This document shows positions 4,568 through 41,805 of a stretch of 50,006 nt of DNA, one piece after another. The translations under genes and the position numbers were made by a program. Origin of the DNA: a virus. Location of the stretch: IMG/VR virus record IMGVR_UViG_3300025108_000079, positions 1 through 50,006 of that record; one strand, 5' to 3'. Below the pieces are notes generated by a model. It did no database searches, was not told where the DNA came from, and saw only the letters and a program-made list of their open reading frames with translations. Each line of letters opens with the position of its first letter. Positions within the stretch are counted from its first letter, which is position 1.

Positions 4568-5218
4568 ATGAAACTTATCAGGGAAGAAATAGAATCAGTA
4601 GAGTTTCTTGTCGAACAAAAGAACGGCAAGAAATCTATGTATATTGAGGGAGTTTTCCTTCAGGGTAACATCAAGAACCGTAATGGTCGTATGTATCCTA
4701 TGGAAACTCTACGCCGTGAGGTTGGTCGTTATAATGAGTCGAATGTTCAGTCTGGTAGAGCACTCGGTGAACTTGGTCATCCTGATGGTCCTACCGTTAA
4801 TCTCGATAGAGTCTCCCATAAAATCGTATCTCTGAAAGAGAGTGGATCCAACTTTGTTGGAAAAGCAAAGATTTTAAATACACCTATGGGTAAAATTGCA
4901 TCTGCTTTGATAGAAGATGGCGTAAAACTCGGTGTTTCATCTCGTGGTATTGGTTCATTAAAGCAGACCCGTGAGGGTGTTAACATAGTCGGTGACGATT
5001 TTATGTTAGCAACTGCTGCTGATATCGTTGCTGATCCTTCTGCACCTGATGCTTTCGTTGAAGGCATTATGGAAGGTAAGGATTGGGTATGGGATGGAGG
5101 CATTCTTCGTGAGAAGTATGTAGAAAAAACTTACAGAGAAATCAACACTCTTGTAACTCAGAAACAACTTGACGAGAAAAAGTTAAATTTATTTAATGAT
5201 TTCCTTGCGAATCTTTAG
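4568..5218 (+). CDS. 21: Prohead core protease gp21
   Basis: Serine protease assembled in the prohead core; it cleaves scaffold, capsid and packaged proteins after (I/L)xE during maturation. The 216 residues match T4 gp21 (212). The His catalytic motif LGELGHPDGP is at about residues 67-74 and the Ser motif GVSSRGIGS at 122-130, the pair expected for the phage prohead protease family. It starts four bases after the preceding gene and is followed by the scaffold gene, as in T4. Confidence 0.93.
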   Translation: MKLIREEIESVEFLVEQKNGKKSMYIEGVFLQGNIKNRNGRMYPMETLRREVGRYNESNVQSGRALGELGHPDGPTVNLDRVSHKIVSLKESGSNFVGKAKILNTPMGKIASALIEDGVKLGVSSRGIGSLKQTREGVNIVGDDFMLATAADIVADPSAPDAFVEGIMEGKDWVWDGGILREKYVEKTYREINTLVTQKQLDEKKLNLFNDFLANL

Positions 5219-6415: not shown

Positions 6416-7810
6416 ATGTTCCAATCTGAACATCTGCAGGAAAAGTGGGCACCTCTCCTCAATCATGAGGGTCTTGATTCAATCAAAGACAATCACAAGA
6501 GAGCAGTGACCGCAGTCCTGTTAGAAAACCAAGAAAAATTCCTCCGTGAGCAATCCTCCTTCGAGCAAGGTGGAATGCTTACTGAGCAACCAACCAACCA
6601 AGTAGGAAACGGTGGATTCACCGGTTCCGCAACCGCAACAGGACCTGTTGCTGGTTTCGACCCCGTACTGATCTCCTTGATCAGACGCTCCATGCCTAAC
6701 TTGGTCGCATATGACCTGGCTGGCGTCCAACCTATGAGTGGACCTACTGGACTCATCTTCGCGATGCGTTCCCGCTACACCAACCAGTCTGGCACCGAAG
6801 CATTCTTCGATGAAGCAGATACCGCATTCTCTGGACAACCTAAGGGTCTTGATGATGCTAATGGTTTCAGTGGTGCTGCTGCTGGTTTAGGTACTACTTC
6901 ACAGACAGGTACTAACCCTTCAGTCCTTAACCCAACCGGTAGTGCAGATAAGACTGCATACAACGTCGGTCAGGGTATGCGTACCGACTCCGCCGAATCA
7001 CTCGACGGAACAGGTGCTAACGCATTCAACCAGATGGCATTCTCGATCGAGAAAGTCACTGTAACCGCTAAGTCCAGAGCACTCAAAGCAGAGTACTCCT
7101 TGGAACTGGCACAAGACCTTAAGGCAATCCACGGTCTGAACGCTGAAGCAGAACTTGCTAACATCCTCTCTACTGAAATCCTTGCGGAAATCAACAGAGA
7201 AGTCATCAGAACCATCTATAAGGTTGCTGAACCAGGTGCTGCTGCTAACACCGCTACTGCTGGTGAGTTTGACCTGGACATCGACTCCAACGGACGTTGG
7301 TCTGTTGAGAAGTTCAAGGGTCTTCTTTTCCAAATCGAGAGAGATGCGAACGCAATCGCACAAAGAACTCGTCGCGGGAAGGGCAACATCATCATGTGTT
7401 CTGCTGACGTAGCGTCTGCACTGACCATGGCTGGTGTGCTCGATTACACCCCTGCACTCAACGCTAACCTGAACGTTGATGACACCGGTAACACCTTCGC
7501 TGGTGTTCTCCAAGGTAAGTATCGTGTATACATCGATCCTTATTCGGCAAACGTCGCTGCTAACCAATACTACGTTGTTGGTTACAAAGGTTCTTCACCT
7601 TACGACGCAGGTATGTTCTACTGCCCATACGTTCCCCTTCAGATGGTTCGTGCCGTTGGCGAGAACAGCTTCCAACCAAAAATTGGATTCAAGACCCGCT
7701 ACGGTATCATCGCAAACCCATTTGCACAGGGTACTTCCCAGGGATCTGGTGCTCTTACGAGCAACAGCAACCGCTACTACCGTCGCGTTACTGTCAAGAA
7801 CCTTATGTGA
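6416..7810 (+). CDS. 23: Major capsid protein gp23
   Basis: Precursor of the hexameric shell subunit, HK97 fold. The 464 residues start MFQSEHLQEKW and show the gp23 core, including PNLVAYDLAGVQPMSGPTG (about residues 98-116) and the conserved C-terminal KIGFKTRYGIIANPFAQ. A prohead protease site is readable as MLTE at residues 54-57, which would remove a 57-residue N-terminal peptide, comparable with the 65 residues removed in T4. I see no clear late promoter immediately upstream, so it may depend on the gp22 promoter. A strong terminator follows. Confidence 0.96.
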   Translation: MFQSEHLQEKWAPLLNHEGLDSIKDNHKRAVTAVLLENQEKFLREQSSFEQGGMLTEQPTNQVGNGGFTGSATATGPVAGFDPVLISLIRRSMPNLVAYDLAGVQPMSGPTGLIFAMRSRYTNQSGTEAFFDEADTAFSGQPKGLDDANGFSGAAAGLGTTSQTGTNPSVLNPTGSADKTAYNVGQGMRTDSAESLDGTGANAFNQMAFSIEKVTVTAKSRALKAEYSLELAQDLKAIHGLNAEAELANILSTEILAEINREVIRTIYKVAEPGAAANTATAGEFDLDIDSNGRWSVEKFKGLLFQIERDANAIAQRTRRGKGNIIMCSADVASALTMAGVLDYTPALNANLNVDDTGNTFAGVLQGKYRVYIDPYSANVAANQYYVVGYKGSSPYDAGMFYCPYVPLQMVRAVGENSFQPKIGFKTRYGIIANPFAQGTSQGSGALTSNSNRYYRRVTVKNLM

Positions 7811-36444: not shown

Positions 36445-36451
36445 CTAAATA
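36445..36451 (+). promoter_or_regulatory. Late promoter (CTAAATA)
   Basis: CTAAATAC directly after the tRNA, 20 bases before the start of the next gene at 36472. Confidence 0.6.
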
Positions 36452-36471
36452 CTTAAAAAGTATTGTGTGTT

Positions 36472-37752
36472 ATGAGTAACACTGCCAAACAAGAAGATTG
36501 TTCTATTTTATTCTTTAAAGAGCACTGCGATAAGAAATTCAAACTTAGTGACAAGCAATACGCCGAGTTGGATAAGAAAGCATTTGGTAAGAGCGGAGTT
36601 TATCCTCAGGCAAATGCTGTTTGGAGAAGAAGTTATGATGAGCAAGTTATTGGTCTCATGAATTACATGATATCAAGGGGTATCACGACGACTGGTTGGT
36701 CTTGGTCAAGAGATCAGGCAAATGGTATGATGAACTTCTTGAATAAAATCGCACAACAGAAAGGTGGAGTCACAGGATCTCTTGACAGTTGGAATCCCAT
36801 GGATGTTGTTGCTGTAAAAAAATCAGAAGAGGCAAAGATAAAAAAAAGAATAACTGAGATGTGTGATACTGGTGATAAACTATTAAATTTAAATACTTTG
36901 AATTCCTTAATGGAAGAATATATTAGAGATAAAAAATTGATGCCAATATCTCTTAAGCAAGTGGGTAAGAACGAAAGAGGAACTTTTGAAATGAGTTCAA
37001 ATCTTAAAACTAGAGAAGCAAAACGAAGATCTCTTCATGAGTTTACTGCAGATAACTTTGCATGTGATTTGGCATGGGATGCGAATGCAAATGAATGGAA
37101 ATTTGCACAGGAAATTTCTTGGGATATGATTGATAGTGGAGGTGGAGGCAGAGAGGCTATGTCTGTCCATGTTCAAGGAAGAACTTTTCAGGCAAAACAA
37201 CCAAGAGAAAAACCTCAACATAGTGGTGCAGCTATTGGTGCTACAGGAGCTATGCTTGGTAAAGCATCTGTTGGAAAATTAGATGCTTTTGTAAAAAAAT
37301 GTGGTTTAAGTGAAGTGCCTGCCCCAGCAAAACATCCACATATTCCCAATCCTGGGGCTGTTTGGTCTGATGCCGATAAAAAGTATTGGATTAATTTGTA
37401 CAATACTCTGAAGAACGCATCTATTGATGGAAAAAGAATAGATTTTGGTAGACCAGGAAAATATGAAGAAGGAACTAATCCATCTGAAGATGGATTTGAA
37501 GCAGCACTTAATGAAGCTTGTCTTGCAGACCAAAGAGATGCGAAAACAAAAACTGGTAGATCTGCTGGAAGTAGATTAACTGCAAAGTTGTGGGGAATGG
37601 AATGGTTGCATCGTTACTATATGATGTCTAAAAAGAAAAAGTTTGATGTCTTCATGCATGTACTAGTTGATGCGATGAAGAAAGAGTCTTCAACTGCGGG
37701 ACCTTTTGTTAAAGTGTTCGGTAAACCAGGACTTACCGCAAGAAGATACTAA
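36472..37752 (+). CDS. Late protein of unknown function, probably virion-associated
   Basis: A 426-residue protein starting MSNTAKQEDCSILFFKEHC. I do not recognise a defined family. Notable segments are SWNPMDVVAVKKSEE (about 100-115), a Trp-Asn-Pro-x-Asp motif that I recall from hypothetical proteins of other phages, and HIPNPGAVWSDADKKYW further on. No membrane segment. It has its own late promoter and leads a block of basic proteins, so a virion role is likely. I chose the ATG at 36472; three extra residues from TTG at 36463 are not needed. Confidence 0.75.
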   Translation: MSNTAKQEDCSILFFKEHCDKKFKLSDKQYAELDKKAFGKSGVYPQANAVWRRSYDEQVIGLMNYMISRGITTTGWSWSRDQANGMMNFLNKIAQQKGGVTGSLDSWNPMDVVAVKKSEEAKIKKRITEMCDTGDKLLNLNTLNSLMEEYIRDKKLMPISLKQVGKNERGTFEMSSNLKTREAKRRSLHEFTADNFACDLAWDANANEWKFAQEISWDMIDSGGGGREAMSVHVQGRTFQAKQPREKPQHSGAAIGATGAMLGKASVGKLDAFVKKCGLSEVPAPAKHPHIPNPGAVWSDADKKYWINLYNTLKNASIDGKRIDFGRPGKYEEGTNPSEDGFEAALNEACLADQRDAKTKTGRSAGSRLTAKLWGMEWLHRYYMMSKKKKFDVFMHVLVDAMKKESSTAGPFVKVFGKPGLTARRY

Positions 37753-37755
37753 ATA
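37749..37755 (+). promoter_or_regulatory. Late promoter (CTAAATA)
   Basis: CTAAATAAT overlaps the stop of the preceding gene and lies 24 bases before the start at 37779. Confidence 0.6.
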
Positions 37756-37778: not shown

Positions 37779-39002
37779 ATGAAAAGTTTCTTTCAGTTCC
37801 TGAATGAGGCTCAGTCGCAAGCAAGTATGCAAGCGAGAAAACTGAACCTTGTAAGTGATGGCCACGGTGGTTGGTTAGATTCCCGTGGTAAATTTGTTGC
37901 GACTACTGAAGATGGTAAGTTAAAATTTGCAGATAAGAAGAAAAAGAAAGCAGAAGATGACAAACCTGCACAACAAAAAACAACACAATCAGAACCTGAA
38001 GCAAAGACTAAGAAACCTGCAACTCAAACGACTGGCGCGAAGAAAGCAGAAGCAGGTGAAGGAGATCAAACTTCTGGGGAGACTACAGAAACTCTGACTG
38101 TTACATTTGGTCGTTTCAATCCACCAACTGTTGGACACGGAAAACTCCTTGCCGCAGCCCAAAAGGCAGCACAGGGTGAAGATATGAAGATCTATCCATC
38201 ACGATCGCAGGATGCTAAGAAGAATCCACTAGATCCTGATATGAAGGTTTCATTTATGAAGAAGATGTTCCCTGATTATTCTGAGAACATTATTAATGAT
38301 GATGAGATGAAGTCAATCTTTAATGTATTGGTTGCAGCAGATGAGGCAGGATATAAGAACGTCAATATTATTGTAGGATCAGATCGTCAGGCAGAATTTG
38401 AGAACCTAGCAACCAAGTATAATGGTGAACTCTATAACTTTGACAACATTCGTGTCATCTCTGCTGGTGTAAGGGATTCTGATGCAGAAGGTGTTGAAGG
38501 AATGTCTGCATCCAAGATGAGAAAAGCAGTCATGGATGATGACTATGATTCATTCCGTAGAGGAACACCAAAAGAATTAAATGATGGTGATACCAAGGCA
38601 CTGTTTAATGCAGTTCGTCAGGGTATGGGTTCTAAGAAGAAAAAAGAAGTTGCTGAGATGTGGGAGATTGCTCCTGAAATTGATCCGAAGGGGTTACGTG
38701 ACAACTATGTATCTGGCAATATCTTTAATCTTGGTGATGTTGTAGAGAATTTAAATACTGGTCTGATTGGTAAGATTGTTCGCCGTGGAACAAACCATCT
38801 TATCTGTGTGACACAAGAGAACTATATGTTCAAGTCCTGGATTCGTGATGTTATGGAAGCAGTTGTGAATTATTCAGGTCCATCTGGGGTTCCATCAAAC
38901 CAGAGAGAGGTTGGAACTGATGCAAATCGTAACTATACGATGAGAATGACCGGCACGGCTGGTATTAAAAATTTAATAAATAAGTATAAGATTAAAAAGT
39001 AA
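37779..39002 (+). CDS. Nucleotidyltransferase-fold protein with capsid-targeting-like N-terminus
   Basis: A 407-residue protein. The N-terminal ten residues, MKSFFQFLNE followed by Ala, closely resemble the T4 capsid-targeting sequence MKTYQEFIAE-A, which directs internal proteins into the prohead and is cut off by gp21 after (I/L)xE. A Lys/Gln/Thr-rich linker follows to about residue 105. Then comes a cytidylyltransferase-like domain: FGRFNPPTVGHGKLL (T/HxGH motif) and later GMSASKMRKAV (the S/TxxxR motif). The last third contains an LGDVVENLNTG SH3-like segment. Packaging and activity are inferred. Confidence 0.75.
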   Translation: MKSFFQFLNEAQSQASMQARKLNLVSDGHGGWLDSRGKFVATTEDGKLKFADKKKKKAEDDKPAQQKTTQSEPEAKTKKPATQTTGAKKAEAGEGDQTSGETTETLTVTFGRFNPPTVGHGKLLAAAQKAAQGEDMKIYPSRSQDAKKNPLDPDMKVSFMKKMFPDYSENIINDDEMKSIFNVLVAADEAGYKNVNIIVGSDRQAEFENLATKYNGELYNFDNIRVISAGVRDSDAEGVEGMSASKMRKAVMDDDYDSFRRGTPKELNDGDTKALFNAVRQGMGSKKKKEVAEMWEIAPEIDPKGLRDNYVSGNIFNLGDVVENLNTGLIGKIVRRGTNHLICVTQENYMFKSWIRDVMEAVVNYSGPSGVPSNQREVGTDANRNYTMRMTGTAGIKNLINKYKIKK

Positions 39003-39014
39003 GATAGTATCACC

Positions 39015-41321
39015 ATGTCTAATGGAATCGGATCTAACCCTTTGAATGCTATTTCAAAGGTATACTTAGAGCAAATTGCTGAGAAAAAAGACGATTCATA
39101 TCTTGAACCTGATATGAAGAAGCGTCAGGCAAATAACGAGAAGGCACGTAAGGAAATGGAAAAGGTGAAGGGTCAGAAGAACCCTCACTTTGAGGAAAAG
39201 GATCCTTTCGGTAGACCAGATGGAAAGCATGGTGGTGTTCCTAAGAAGGGTGGTGGATATGATAAAGCATATCAAGCCAACATGAAGAAGGTTAAAGAGT
39301 TAGATAAGAAAGAAGGATGGGATGCTGTAAATGCTCTTGCTGATGCATATAAAGAAATGCATCAGGTGGATGAGAATCGTGCTGCTATGGGAAGAATCGC
39401 CAGAGAATATAAGAAGAGGAAAGAAGAGGAGGGCATGAAAAAAAGGATGGCGGATCATGCCGATAAAATGAAAAATGATCCTGAGTACGCCGCAAAAAGA
39501 AGAGCACAGGATAAAATTCATAGAGAAGAACTTGAGTTAGACGAGAATCGTCGTGCTGCCCGTGCTGCTGGTGGGTATAAGGATGATTCTAAGAAGCAAA
39601 CCGATCCTTCCAAGGCAGGTTTCACTGGCATCTCTGGTAGCATTAAAGATATCATGAGACAGAACAAAGAGATTGAAGCAAAAAATAAAGCAAAGTCAAA
39701 AACTGAAGGACTTGATCCTGTCGGTAAGGAAGATAGTGATGTCAATAATGATGGTAAGAAAGATAGTACTGATTCTTATCTGATGAAGCGCCGTAAGGCA
39801 ATTGGTAATGCCATCAAAGGCAAGATGAAGAAAGAAGAAGTTGAGAATGTAGAAGAACTCTACAAAGGTAAGCACGGACAGACTGAGAAGCAGTATCAGG
39901 ACAGCAGATCTGATGCAGGCAAGATGGTCTCTGGCGACTCTAAGATGAGTGGATCCAAGTATGCTCAGGGTAGAAGAACTGGTAGTGATGCTGGTCCTCA
40001 ACCTGCTGGTGGTTCCCAGAAACCTGCAAGTCAGGGTAAGATGGATAGTGGCAGTCGCACTGATCTTCAGTTCCGTAAGGCAGCACTGAAGAAAAAAGAG
40101 ATGAAGGAAGCATATTCTTCCTGGAGGCAAGACCTCTCCGAAATTATGACTGACGATATCGATTCAAAACCGATTAAGGAAAAAAAAAATATAAAAAATT
40201 CGATTAAGATCAATCCAAAACTTGGCGAATCTGTAGAGCAACTGGGTGGTGAAATCCTTGAGATGGTTGAGGTTGATCAGTTTGATGGTATTGTTGAAGA
40301 GGTGTTCCAAGATCTTTTAAGTGAGGGTTACAGTGAGCAACTTGTGAGAGCTGCTATTGAAGAAGCAACAGTTACCTATGGCCATGACACTAGTGGGGAT
40401 GCTGAGGGAATGAGAGACAAACTCAAGAAGAAAGCAAAAGGATTCCTTGGCAAAGTTGCTGTCAAGGCATACAATAAAGCAAGAGAAGCAAAGGCAGCAG
40501 CAACACCTGCAGTACAAAGAGCAAAGACATCAGCAAAGCGTGGCATCAGAAAGATGGCACTTAAGGTTGCTGACAAATTGAAAGAAGAAAACGTAGATGA
40601 AGCAGTCTATGGTGGTACTCCACCAGAGAAAAAGGACACCCGTATGGTTGTCACAAATGCTGACAAGAAAGCAAATACTCCTGCATATCAAAAGATGAAG
40701 GCAGGTGACAAGCGTTACAAGGCTGCTGATCACATGAACGAGGGTGATGGTGATCCTTGCTGGGACTCCCATAAGCAAGTTGGAATGAAGAAGAAAGGCA
40801 ACCGCATGGTTCCTAACTGTGTTCCTAAGAACGAAGAGGTTGAGGTCTCTGAAGAGGGATCTATGTCTGCTCAAGAAATTGCCCTTCAGAAAAGAAAGTC
40901 AACCATCGATCAGATGATTGCTAGAAAAAGAAGACAGGAACTTGACCAGGGTAAAAAAGAAAAACCCACAAAGGCGATGGGTGAAGAAACCGAAGATTCT
41001 CTAAGAGATCGTCGCATGGAACGTGGTGGTGTTGATGGCAATAACCGTTACAACAAACCAATCAGTAACACGCCAAATACATTTGGTAAGAAAAAACCAA
41101 AATATGATGGTATGTCTGCACTTGAAAAAGTGAAAGCAGATATCCGTGCCAAGCATGGTAAAGGTGCCATCAAAGAAGACGCCAAGATGGCCAAACAGTC
41201 GGATGAGAAACTAGCAGCACTCCATAAGCAAGTAAGTTCTAGTGATCAGAGTCTTCCTTCTAATCAATTTATGATGAAGAGAGTGACGAAGGAGATGAAT
41301 CGCAGAAAGAAAGCGACTTGA
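39015..41321 (+). CDS. Large basic low-complexity protein, probably packaged in the capsid
   Basis: A 768-residue protein very rich in Lys, Glu, Asp, Gly and Met, with many charged helical stretches and few hydrophobic cores. I do not recognise a domain. Prohead-protease-like (I/L)xE sites occur, for example QIAE near residue 23 and LDE near residue 183. Similar short modules recur (RMERGGVDGNNRYNK, KKKGNRMVPNCVPKNEE). It lies in the late block. A DNA-binding internal head protein is plausible. Weak late element AATAAATA at 38975 lies upstream. Confidence 0.7.
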   Translation: MSNGIGSNPLNAISKVYLEQIAEKKDDSYLEPDMKKRQANNEKARKEMEKVKGQKNPHFEEKDPFGRPDGKHGGVPKKGGGYDKAYQANMKKVKELDKKEGWDAVNALADAYKEMHQVDENRAAMGRIAREYKKRKEEEGMKKRMADHADKMKNDPEYAAKRRAQDKIHREELELDENRRAARAAGGYKDDSKKQTDPSKAGFTGISGSIKDIMRQNKEIEAKNKAKSKTEGLDPVGKEDSDVNNDGKKDSTDSYLMKRRKAIGNAIKGKMKKEEVENVEELYKGKHGQTEKQYQDSRSDAGKMVSGDSKMSGSKYAQGRRTGSDAGPQPAGGSQKPASQGKMDSGSRTDLQFRKAALKKKEMKEAYSSWRQDLSEIMTDDIDSKPIKEKKNIKNSIKINPKLGESVEQLGGEILEMVEVDQFDGIVEEVFQDLLSEGYSEQLVRAAIEEATVTYGHDTSGDAEGMRDKLKKKAKGFLGKVAVKAYNKAREAKAAATPAVQRAKTSAKRGIRKMALKVADKLKEENVDEAVYGGTPPEKKDTRMVVTNADKKANTPAYQKMKAGDKRYKAADHMNEGDGDPCWDSHKQVGMKKKGNRMVPNCVPKNEEVEVSEEGSMSAQEIALQKRKSTIDQMIARKRRQELDQGKKEKPTKAMGEETEDSLRDRRMERGGVDGNNRYNKPISNTPNTFGKKKPKYDGMSALEKVKADIRAKHGKGAIKEDAKMAKQSDEKLAALHKQVSSSDQSLPSNQFMMKRVTKEMNRRKKAT

Positions 41322-41322
41322 T

Positions 41323-41805
41323 ATGCCAGCAGTATCTAAAGCACAGCAAAGGTTTATGGGTATGGTCTATGCCACCAAGAAAGGTGACATGACCAACCCT
41401 TCACCTGAGGTTGCCCAAGCAGCAGCATCCATGAAGAAGAGTGATGCGAAAGACTTTGCATCAACTAAGCATAAGAAACTCCCTGAGAAGAAGGTTGCAA
41501 AAGAAGCAGCAGATTTTTCGCAGCGAGATAAGATTATGAAGAAAGCAAAACCTCTTCATAAACATCTTTATAAAAACCTTCATAAGAAAGATACTTCTGG
41601 TGATGTGAATGAAAAAATTGATTATGCTGATTCTAAGCAAATGAAAAAATTTGCTGATGAGAAAAAGAAGCATAAAGAACAAGACAATAGAATGAAGTTT
41701 GGTAAATTTTCCAAACGTGCCGAAGAGGCAAGAGATCGTTTACGTCCTGGTGAAGTAAAACGTTATGATAAAGCAAAAGGTAAATGGGTTTCTAATAAGG
41801 ATTGA
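41323..41805 (+). CDS. DUF3008-like basic protein
   Basis: A 160-residue, strongly basic protein. The first 65 residues match the DUF3008 pattern I recall: MPAVSKAQQRFMGMVYATKK, then SPEVAQAAASMKKSDAKDFA and STKHKKLPEKK. The remainder is Lys-rich with further short basic modules. Start is two bases after the previous stop. No function is assigned to the family; its basic character and neighbours suggest a packaged, DNA-associated protein. Confidence 0.75.
   Translation: MPAVSKAQQRFMGMVYATKKGDMTNPSPEVAQAAASMKKSDAKDFASTKHKKLPEKKVAKEAADFSQRDKIMKKAKPLHKHLYKNLHKKDTSGDVNEKIDYADSKQMKKFADEKKKHKEQDNRMKFGKFSKRAEEARDRLRPGEVKRYDKAKGKWVSNKD

Follow-up and report, generated by a model that had tools for sequence, protein, structure and literature searches.

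The window analysed here, a stretch of 50,006 nucleotides from IMG/VR virus record IMGVR_UViG_3300025108_000079, has the gene content of a T4-like cyanophage and encodes, on the + strand from the ATG at 37779 to a stop codon ending at 39002, a 407-residue protein that starts MKSFFQFLNEA and continues into a nucleotidyltransferase (NTase) domain. This locus raises the question of whether an enzyme is loaded into the phage head through a T4-type capsid-targeting sequence (CTS) and delivered at the start of infection, as a preliminary description of the sequence had proposed. Our analysis leads to a largely affirmative answer: the NTase is probably packed inside the head of a T4-like cyanophage as an ejection enzyme, leader-loaded, cut after E10, delivered with the DNA and catalytically intact.

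The protein belongs to phrog_395, "cytidyltransferase" (T4-GC190), with a profile match (E 5.7e-106) over residues 100-402, that is, the NTase and C-terminal regions. The family, widespread in Kyanoviridae, matched 528 phage records, most of them from Synechococcus and Prochlorococcus phages. Among the matches listed, the nearest relative is the S-SM2 protein (81%), and the S-SCSM1 virion protein is 70% identical. Domain boundaries (Table 1) were drawn from an AlphaFold2 model built on 43 homologs together with the homolog alignment. The NTase domain of the preliminary description is retained in this layout, to which we add two elements absent from it: a 37-residue module with the signature SDGHG and a small C-terminal beta-barrel. 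The barrel is labelled 'ribonucleotide reductase A subunit' or NrdB in many cyanophage records (for example L187:3501-3776, S-PM2p141), apparently a propagated misannotation.

Table 1. Positions of the features discussed, numbered along the window.
Feature	Position	Strand	Basis or comment
Leader MKSFFQFLNE, T4-type CTS	37779..37808	+	Predicted cut after E10, before A11; conservation, codon test, PSSM, T4 functional positions
SDGHG module, residues 17-53 (37 residues)	37827..37937	+	Profile search, tblastn, model
Disordered K/E/Q/T-rich linker, residues 54-102	37938..38084	+	pLDDT <50; indel-rich among homologs
NTase domain, adenylyltransferase-like, residues 104-286	38088..38636	+	Catalytic motifs intact; well modelled
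Small C-terminal beta-barrel module, residues 303-361	38685..38861	+	AlphaFold2 model; separate gene in S-RSM4, S-PM2, P-HM2
gp21-type prohead protease	4568..5218	+	42% to T4 gp21 over 149 columns, E 2e-32; 69% to S-SCSM1 head maturation protease
Major capsid protein gp23	6416..7810	+	MLTE|Q aligned to T4 gp23 site FLTE|A
Neighbour, 768 aa, phrog_1418	39015..41321	+	Homolog of S-SCSM1 gp280 (annotated virion protein); BLASTP 35% over 359 columns, E 2e-34
Neighbour, DUF3008 protein	41323..41805	+	Homolog of S-SCSM1 gp279 (annotated virion protein), 89% over 57 residues; Pfam
CTAAATA, late-promoter-like motif	37749..37755	+	30 nt before the ATG at 37779

The proposed alignment of MKSFFQFLNE-A with T4 MKTYQEFIAE-A proved correct when checked against the T4 record, where ipII and ipIII begin in exactly this way and ipI with MKTFKEFTSTTTPVSTITEA. 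A lack of conservation in residues 1-11 had been named beforehand as evidence against the idea; instead, these residues are strongly conserved. In 52 close homologs, K2, F7, E10 and A11 never change although their codons do (TTC in 29 and TTT in 23 for F7, three codons for A11), while position 9 may be N, S, T or K. The leader has a pN of 0.06 against a pS of 0.73 and is under strong constraint at the protein level; the downstream linker gave a pN of 0.35, a rough value for an indel-rich stretch compared without gaps.

The same pattern extends to more distant relatives. A clade of about 40% identity (n=78) carries M[RKN]F..F[IL].EA in all but two members, which have L-T-F starts, followed by variable sequence; in this clade the leader is one residue shorter, with F3 and F6 at the targeting positions. 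Across 43 diverged homologs, F7 and E10 are invariant, and M1, F4, L/I8 and A11 are almost so. In the protease site (I/L)xE|, the glutamate is invariant among the homologs sampled, I/L is nearly so (F in a few), and x varies. Amber-suppression mapping of T4 IPIII assigned targeting to residues 4 and 7 and processing to residues 8 and 10 (PMC9026906); the conserved positions of the leader are those mapped functionally in T4. Internal (I/L)xE sites, looked for as a sign of exposure to the protease, showed no significant depletion in the NTase.

To ask how specific the leader is, we built a PSSM solely from the 18 distinct leaders of one clade of this family and ran it on other genomes. Over all start codons in 158.9 kb of T4, ipIII, ipII and ipI ranked third to fifth, behind alt.-3 and an internal methionine of uvsX; Alt was not retrieved from this sequence. 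The top match, alt.-3 (MKSSLRFLGQE; L097:42742-43032, - strand), scores above the known internal proteins and is possibly an unrecognised internal protein or a chance match. Among the 219 annotated proteins of S-CREM2, the five best were the NTase (ORF154), ORF14, ORF6, ORF136 and ORF13, with a drop from 10.5 to 4.3 bits between the fifth and the next protein, and each of these had been detected in virions by the published proteome study (Table 3 of PMC10665884; hypergeometric P = 6.5e-4). ORF14 is an APH/Ser-Thr-type kinase, ORF6 a SAM lyase (PF23780, E 2e-19), and ORF136 and ORF13 are unknowns. In S-SCSM1 the virion NMNAT ranked first, followed by gp030, which has no annotation as detected by mass spectrometry. 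This 106-residue protein (L099:44215-44535, phrog_1742), which starts MKTFKQFMSE and is encoded between two virion proteins, is a candidate small internal protein.

Simple patterns discriminated less well, since a loose leader regular expression did not enrich for virion proteins in S-CREM2 (P 0.19) and a tighter one gave P 0.057; the evidence therefore lies in the PSSM, whose training set came from other sequences, and in position-specific conservation. Within the 160 homologous loci, 167 of 14,688 candidate start codons carried a leader of this kind, 158 of them inside the NTase gene (a few possibly internal methionines). One of the nine found elsewhere resembled a genuine tagged gene, namely a homolog of the window DUF3008 protein (L039:10701-11093) with the added start MKTFKEFI, like that of T4 IPI, which suggests capture of the tag by another neighbour. 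Adjacent genes with leader-like starts (MQGFKTFLSE, MINFSKYITE, MKKFSEIIE), including a DUF6267-like gene and an NTase, were also seen in Methylophilales phage Melnitz-3 (L091).

Orthologs of the window NTase have been found by mass spectrometry in purified virions of S-SM1, S-SCSM1, S-SZBM1 and S-CREM2, and all four carry a leader: MKKFSAFLNE|A, MKSFLQFLKE|A, MRFRQFIIE|A and MKNFSSFLTE|A, respectively. Together with the conservation of the leader, this supports the head-packaged enzyme of the preliminary description. The same proteomes also admit another reading, in which the NTase is an ordinary cytoplasmic auxiliary metabolic enzyme that contaminates virion preparations and its conserved N-terminus is merely an N-terminal helix. 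Peptide counts are low (3 in S-CREM2, 2 in S-SZBM1), and the authors of the proteomes allow for carry-over after CsCl. Leaderless forms of the enzyme also exist, in P-HM2, S-RSM4 and S-PM2, so head delivery is not indispensable to its role. We nevertheless consider contamination unlikely: the leader matches the T4 internal proteins at functional positions and is common to sequence-unrelated proteins detected in S-CREM2 virions, from which such abundant enzymes as NrdA, NrdB, DNA polymerase and helicase are missing.

The leaderless forms differ in their arrangement. The S-PM2 NTase has lost the leader and has an unrelated N-terminus of about 200 residues in its place; T4-GC190 is listed as encoded by this phage yet not found in its virions (PMC3037559), a single case from an older study. 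In P-HM2 the NTase is split off and leaderless, and the gene for the C-terminal module (PHM2_164, L089:3559-4875) begins MKSLSDFTKKSKVAE|A, which recalls the longer propeptide of T4 IPI.

Behind the leader, the SDGHG module forms a small fold with the signature SDGHG-x-W-x-D, according to the model and the alignment. Sequence searches located it on the kinases of S-H34 and S-CREM2, with two copies each, on HNH-like proteins of phrog_3561 from S-CREM2, S-H34 and ACG-2014f, and on a 175-residue protein of Xanthomonas phage X1; run on the window, on the S-CREM2 and S-SCSM1 genomes in full and on a nearly complete T4 sequence, the profile retrieved no further ORFs. All the module-bearing proteins found also start with a leader-like motif, a weak one in the S-H34 kinase (MRLSQFNE), and the module may aid retention, protection or ejection.

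In the S-CREM2 member of phrog_3561, ORF12, the leader motif lies slightly inside the annotated start (RFASFMAE|A; GFSSFLKE|A in the S-H34 homolog). ORF12 is annotated as 'Cas9', an identity that we rejected on the basis of its membership in phrog_3561 and the lack of a Pfam Cas9 match. Leader and module are N-terminal in the phrog_3561 proteins (L082:7704-10313, - strand, which is ORF12; L184:8950-11340; L081:7757-10690), and an HNH-like C-terminal region was recognised by eye in the ACG-2014f member. The virion-detected SAM lyase of S-CREM2 (ORF6; L082:3837-5081, - strand) starts MKDFDSFLEE; a packaged SAM-degrading enzyme could weaken SAM-dependent restriction at entry. Overall, it seems fairly probable that Kyanoviridae share a head-delivery tag that can be transferred between proteins, namely a T4-type CTS with the SDGHG module behind it in many cases. 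This tag would load a set of unrelated proteins, among them an NTase, a kinase, a SAM lyase and an HNH-like nuclease, directed against the host or its defences as the DNA enters, with new cargo acquired by fusion.

The window also contains the machinery that such a leader would need. The gp21-type protease is predicted to be the enzyme removing the leader, and the alignment of the gp23 site with that of T4 indicates that the protease preference appears to be kept. Both genes downstream of the NTase have virion homologs in S-SCSM1, and in S-SZBM1 a protein encoded beside the NTase is on the virion list as well. The upstream neighbour (36463-37752) was considered as a homolog of S-SCSM1 gp282, but its match is not clear (E 0.01), so the count of virion homologs is limited to the two downstream genes.

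A motif of the form NTAAATA (CTAAATA or ATAAATA) lies about 30 nt upstream of the NTase gene in nearly all close homologs sampled, and the late promoter of S-PM2 has been reported as NATAAATA (PMC2984593). CTAAATA is not over-represented genome-wide and is informative only through its conserved position upstream of this gene. Another copy, at 36445 (window 36445-36475), precedes the upstream gene and suggests that the latter starts at ATG 36472 (MSNTAK...) rather than at TTG 36463.

As for the enzyme itself, its motifs comprise GRFNPPTVGH (residues 111-120), GSDR (200-203) and MSASKMR, with S243 and R248. GRFxPPxxGH, GxDR and S-x-S-x-x-R are invariant in leader-bearing and leaderless forms and in jumbo phages, G119-H120, S243 and R248 being the invariant residues. 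This conservation bears on a further alternative, that the NTase helps to build the head, as a structural or core-assembly component, its fold serving as a scaffold and its activity lost or unneeded. Low sequence scores to active families and its occurrence alongside other head proteins would fit such a role, to which we give little weight: the motifs persist even in leaderless and jumbo-phage forms, which argues for retained catalysis, and S-PM2 apparently makes heads without the NTase in the virion.

The preliminary description had called the domain cytidylyltransferase-like, with T-x-G-H and S-x-x-x-R motifs. The first motif stands; the second is S-x-S-x-x-R, and the cytidylyl label is not supported, the fold being nearest to PPAT and NadD. 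Solved structures matched the NTase model best for PPAT and then NadD (12-17% identity), so that, as far as the model indicates, the domain is closer to adenylyltransferases than to cytidylyltransferases and cytidylyl specificity is doubtful. The Pfam superfamily PF01467 spans both kinds of enzyme; the window NTase scores 17 bits against a cut-off of 21, while the S-CREM2 ortholog exceeds it with 22.3 bits. In sequence-profile searches the best PDB match was UPF0348 MJ0951 (E 8e-4), and phmmer against PDB sequences returned nothing useful.

The NMNAT family models fell far below their cut-offs (TIGR00482, 14.0 against 112 bits; TIGR01526, 12.3 against 341 bits), and the NTase is therefore not classed as an NMNAT. 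Namat/NARP1 was also considered and set aside, Namat being Nampt-like and of a different fold. NMN or NaMN is the single most likely acceptor, a reaction that would rebuild NAD, without reaching an even chance. The PPAT and UPF0348 matches and the low NMNAT scores make other acceptors possible, and the reading in which the enzyme is delivered as proposed but uses an acceptor other than NMN/NaMN, for instance phosphopantetheine, the phosphate of a polyol or of a lipid head group, or a UPF0348-type acyl group, has about an even chance. Against such acceptors, GRFxPPxxGH resembles the motif of NadM/NadR, and the NMNAT models are the most consistent weak matches across the family.

From these observations we propose a mechanism. 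Its late timing, the cut at E10, the place within the head, the ejection and the action in the host are all inferred. The NTase would be made late from its own late promoter, for which the motif is present. Its ten-residue leader would dock it into the prohead scaffold core, chiefly via F4 and F7 by analogy with T4 IPIII, and the gp21-type protease would then cut after E10 to leave a mature protein starting at A11. The mature enzyme would stay with the DNA and enter the host at ejection, where the NTase domain would transfer a nucleotide to a phosphorylated metabolite, with AMP donated by ATP as the likeliest case. In related phages this tag, by itself or together with the SDGHG module, would load the kinase, the SAM lyase and the HNH-like protein into the head.

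In the virions of cyanophages, several groups have detected 'NMNAT', kinases, a SAM hydrolase and a nuclease, leaving undecided whether these are cargo or contamination. A virion NMNAT is also known from S-CBWM1, a cyanomyovirus outside the T4 type. Virion detection and the idea of early action are thus already published; what is new here is the leader, a T4-type CTS on a conserved enzyme and on several unrelated proteins. The virion 'NMNAT'/cytidylyltransferase of cyanophages (phrog_395) is the same family as the window NTase, and the literature searched, which covered few subscription papers, contained no report of a CTS on these virion proteins and no description of the packaging leader or of the SDGHG module. 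The leader offers a mechanism for loading such proteins and a rule by which injected effectors can be predicted from sequence in ocean viruses that are very abundant.

Among known enzymes, NadD, NadM-NadR and PPAT (CoaD) share the fold and the (T/H)xGH and SxSxxR motifs with the window NTase, which differs in its additional leader, module and C-terminal barrel. MuF or portal-fusion head-packaged effectors and polyvalent proteins (PMC9503650) are likewise enzymes fused to head-delivery elements, whereas delivery of the NTase would use a cleavable T4-type CTS. T4 Alt, a head-packaged and injected ADP-ribosyltransferase, offers a parallel, being an enzyme that passes from the head into the host as infection begins, as we propose for the NTase, but its fold and chemistry are unrelated. 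The closest likeness is to T4 IPI, IPII and IPIII, with an N-terminal propeptide of about ten residues bearing F/Y4, F7, I/L8, E10 and A11, a gp21-type protease in the genome and, for the NTase, relatives in virions. The T4 proteins are small, abundant and basic, whereas the cargo encoded in the window is an enzyme of several domains, kept throughout a whole phage family and apparently of low copy. If our reading is correct, distant T4-like phages have kept the CTS system of T4 but not its cargo.
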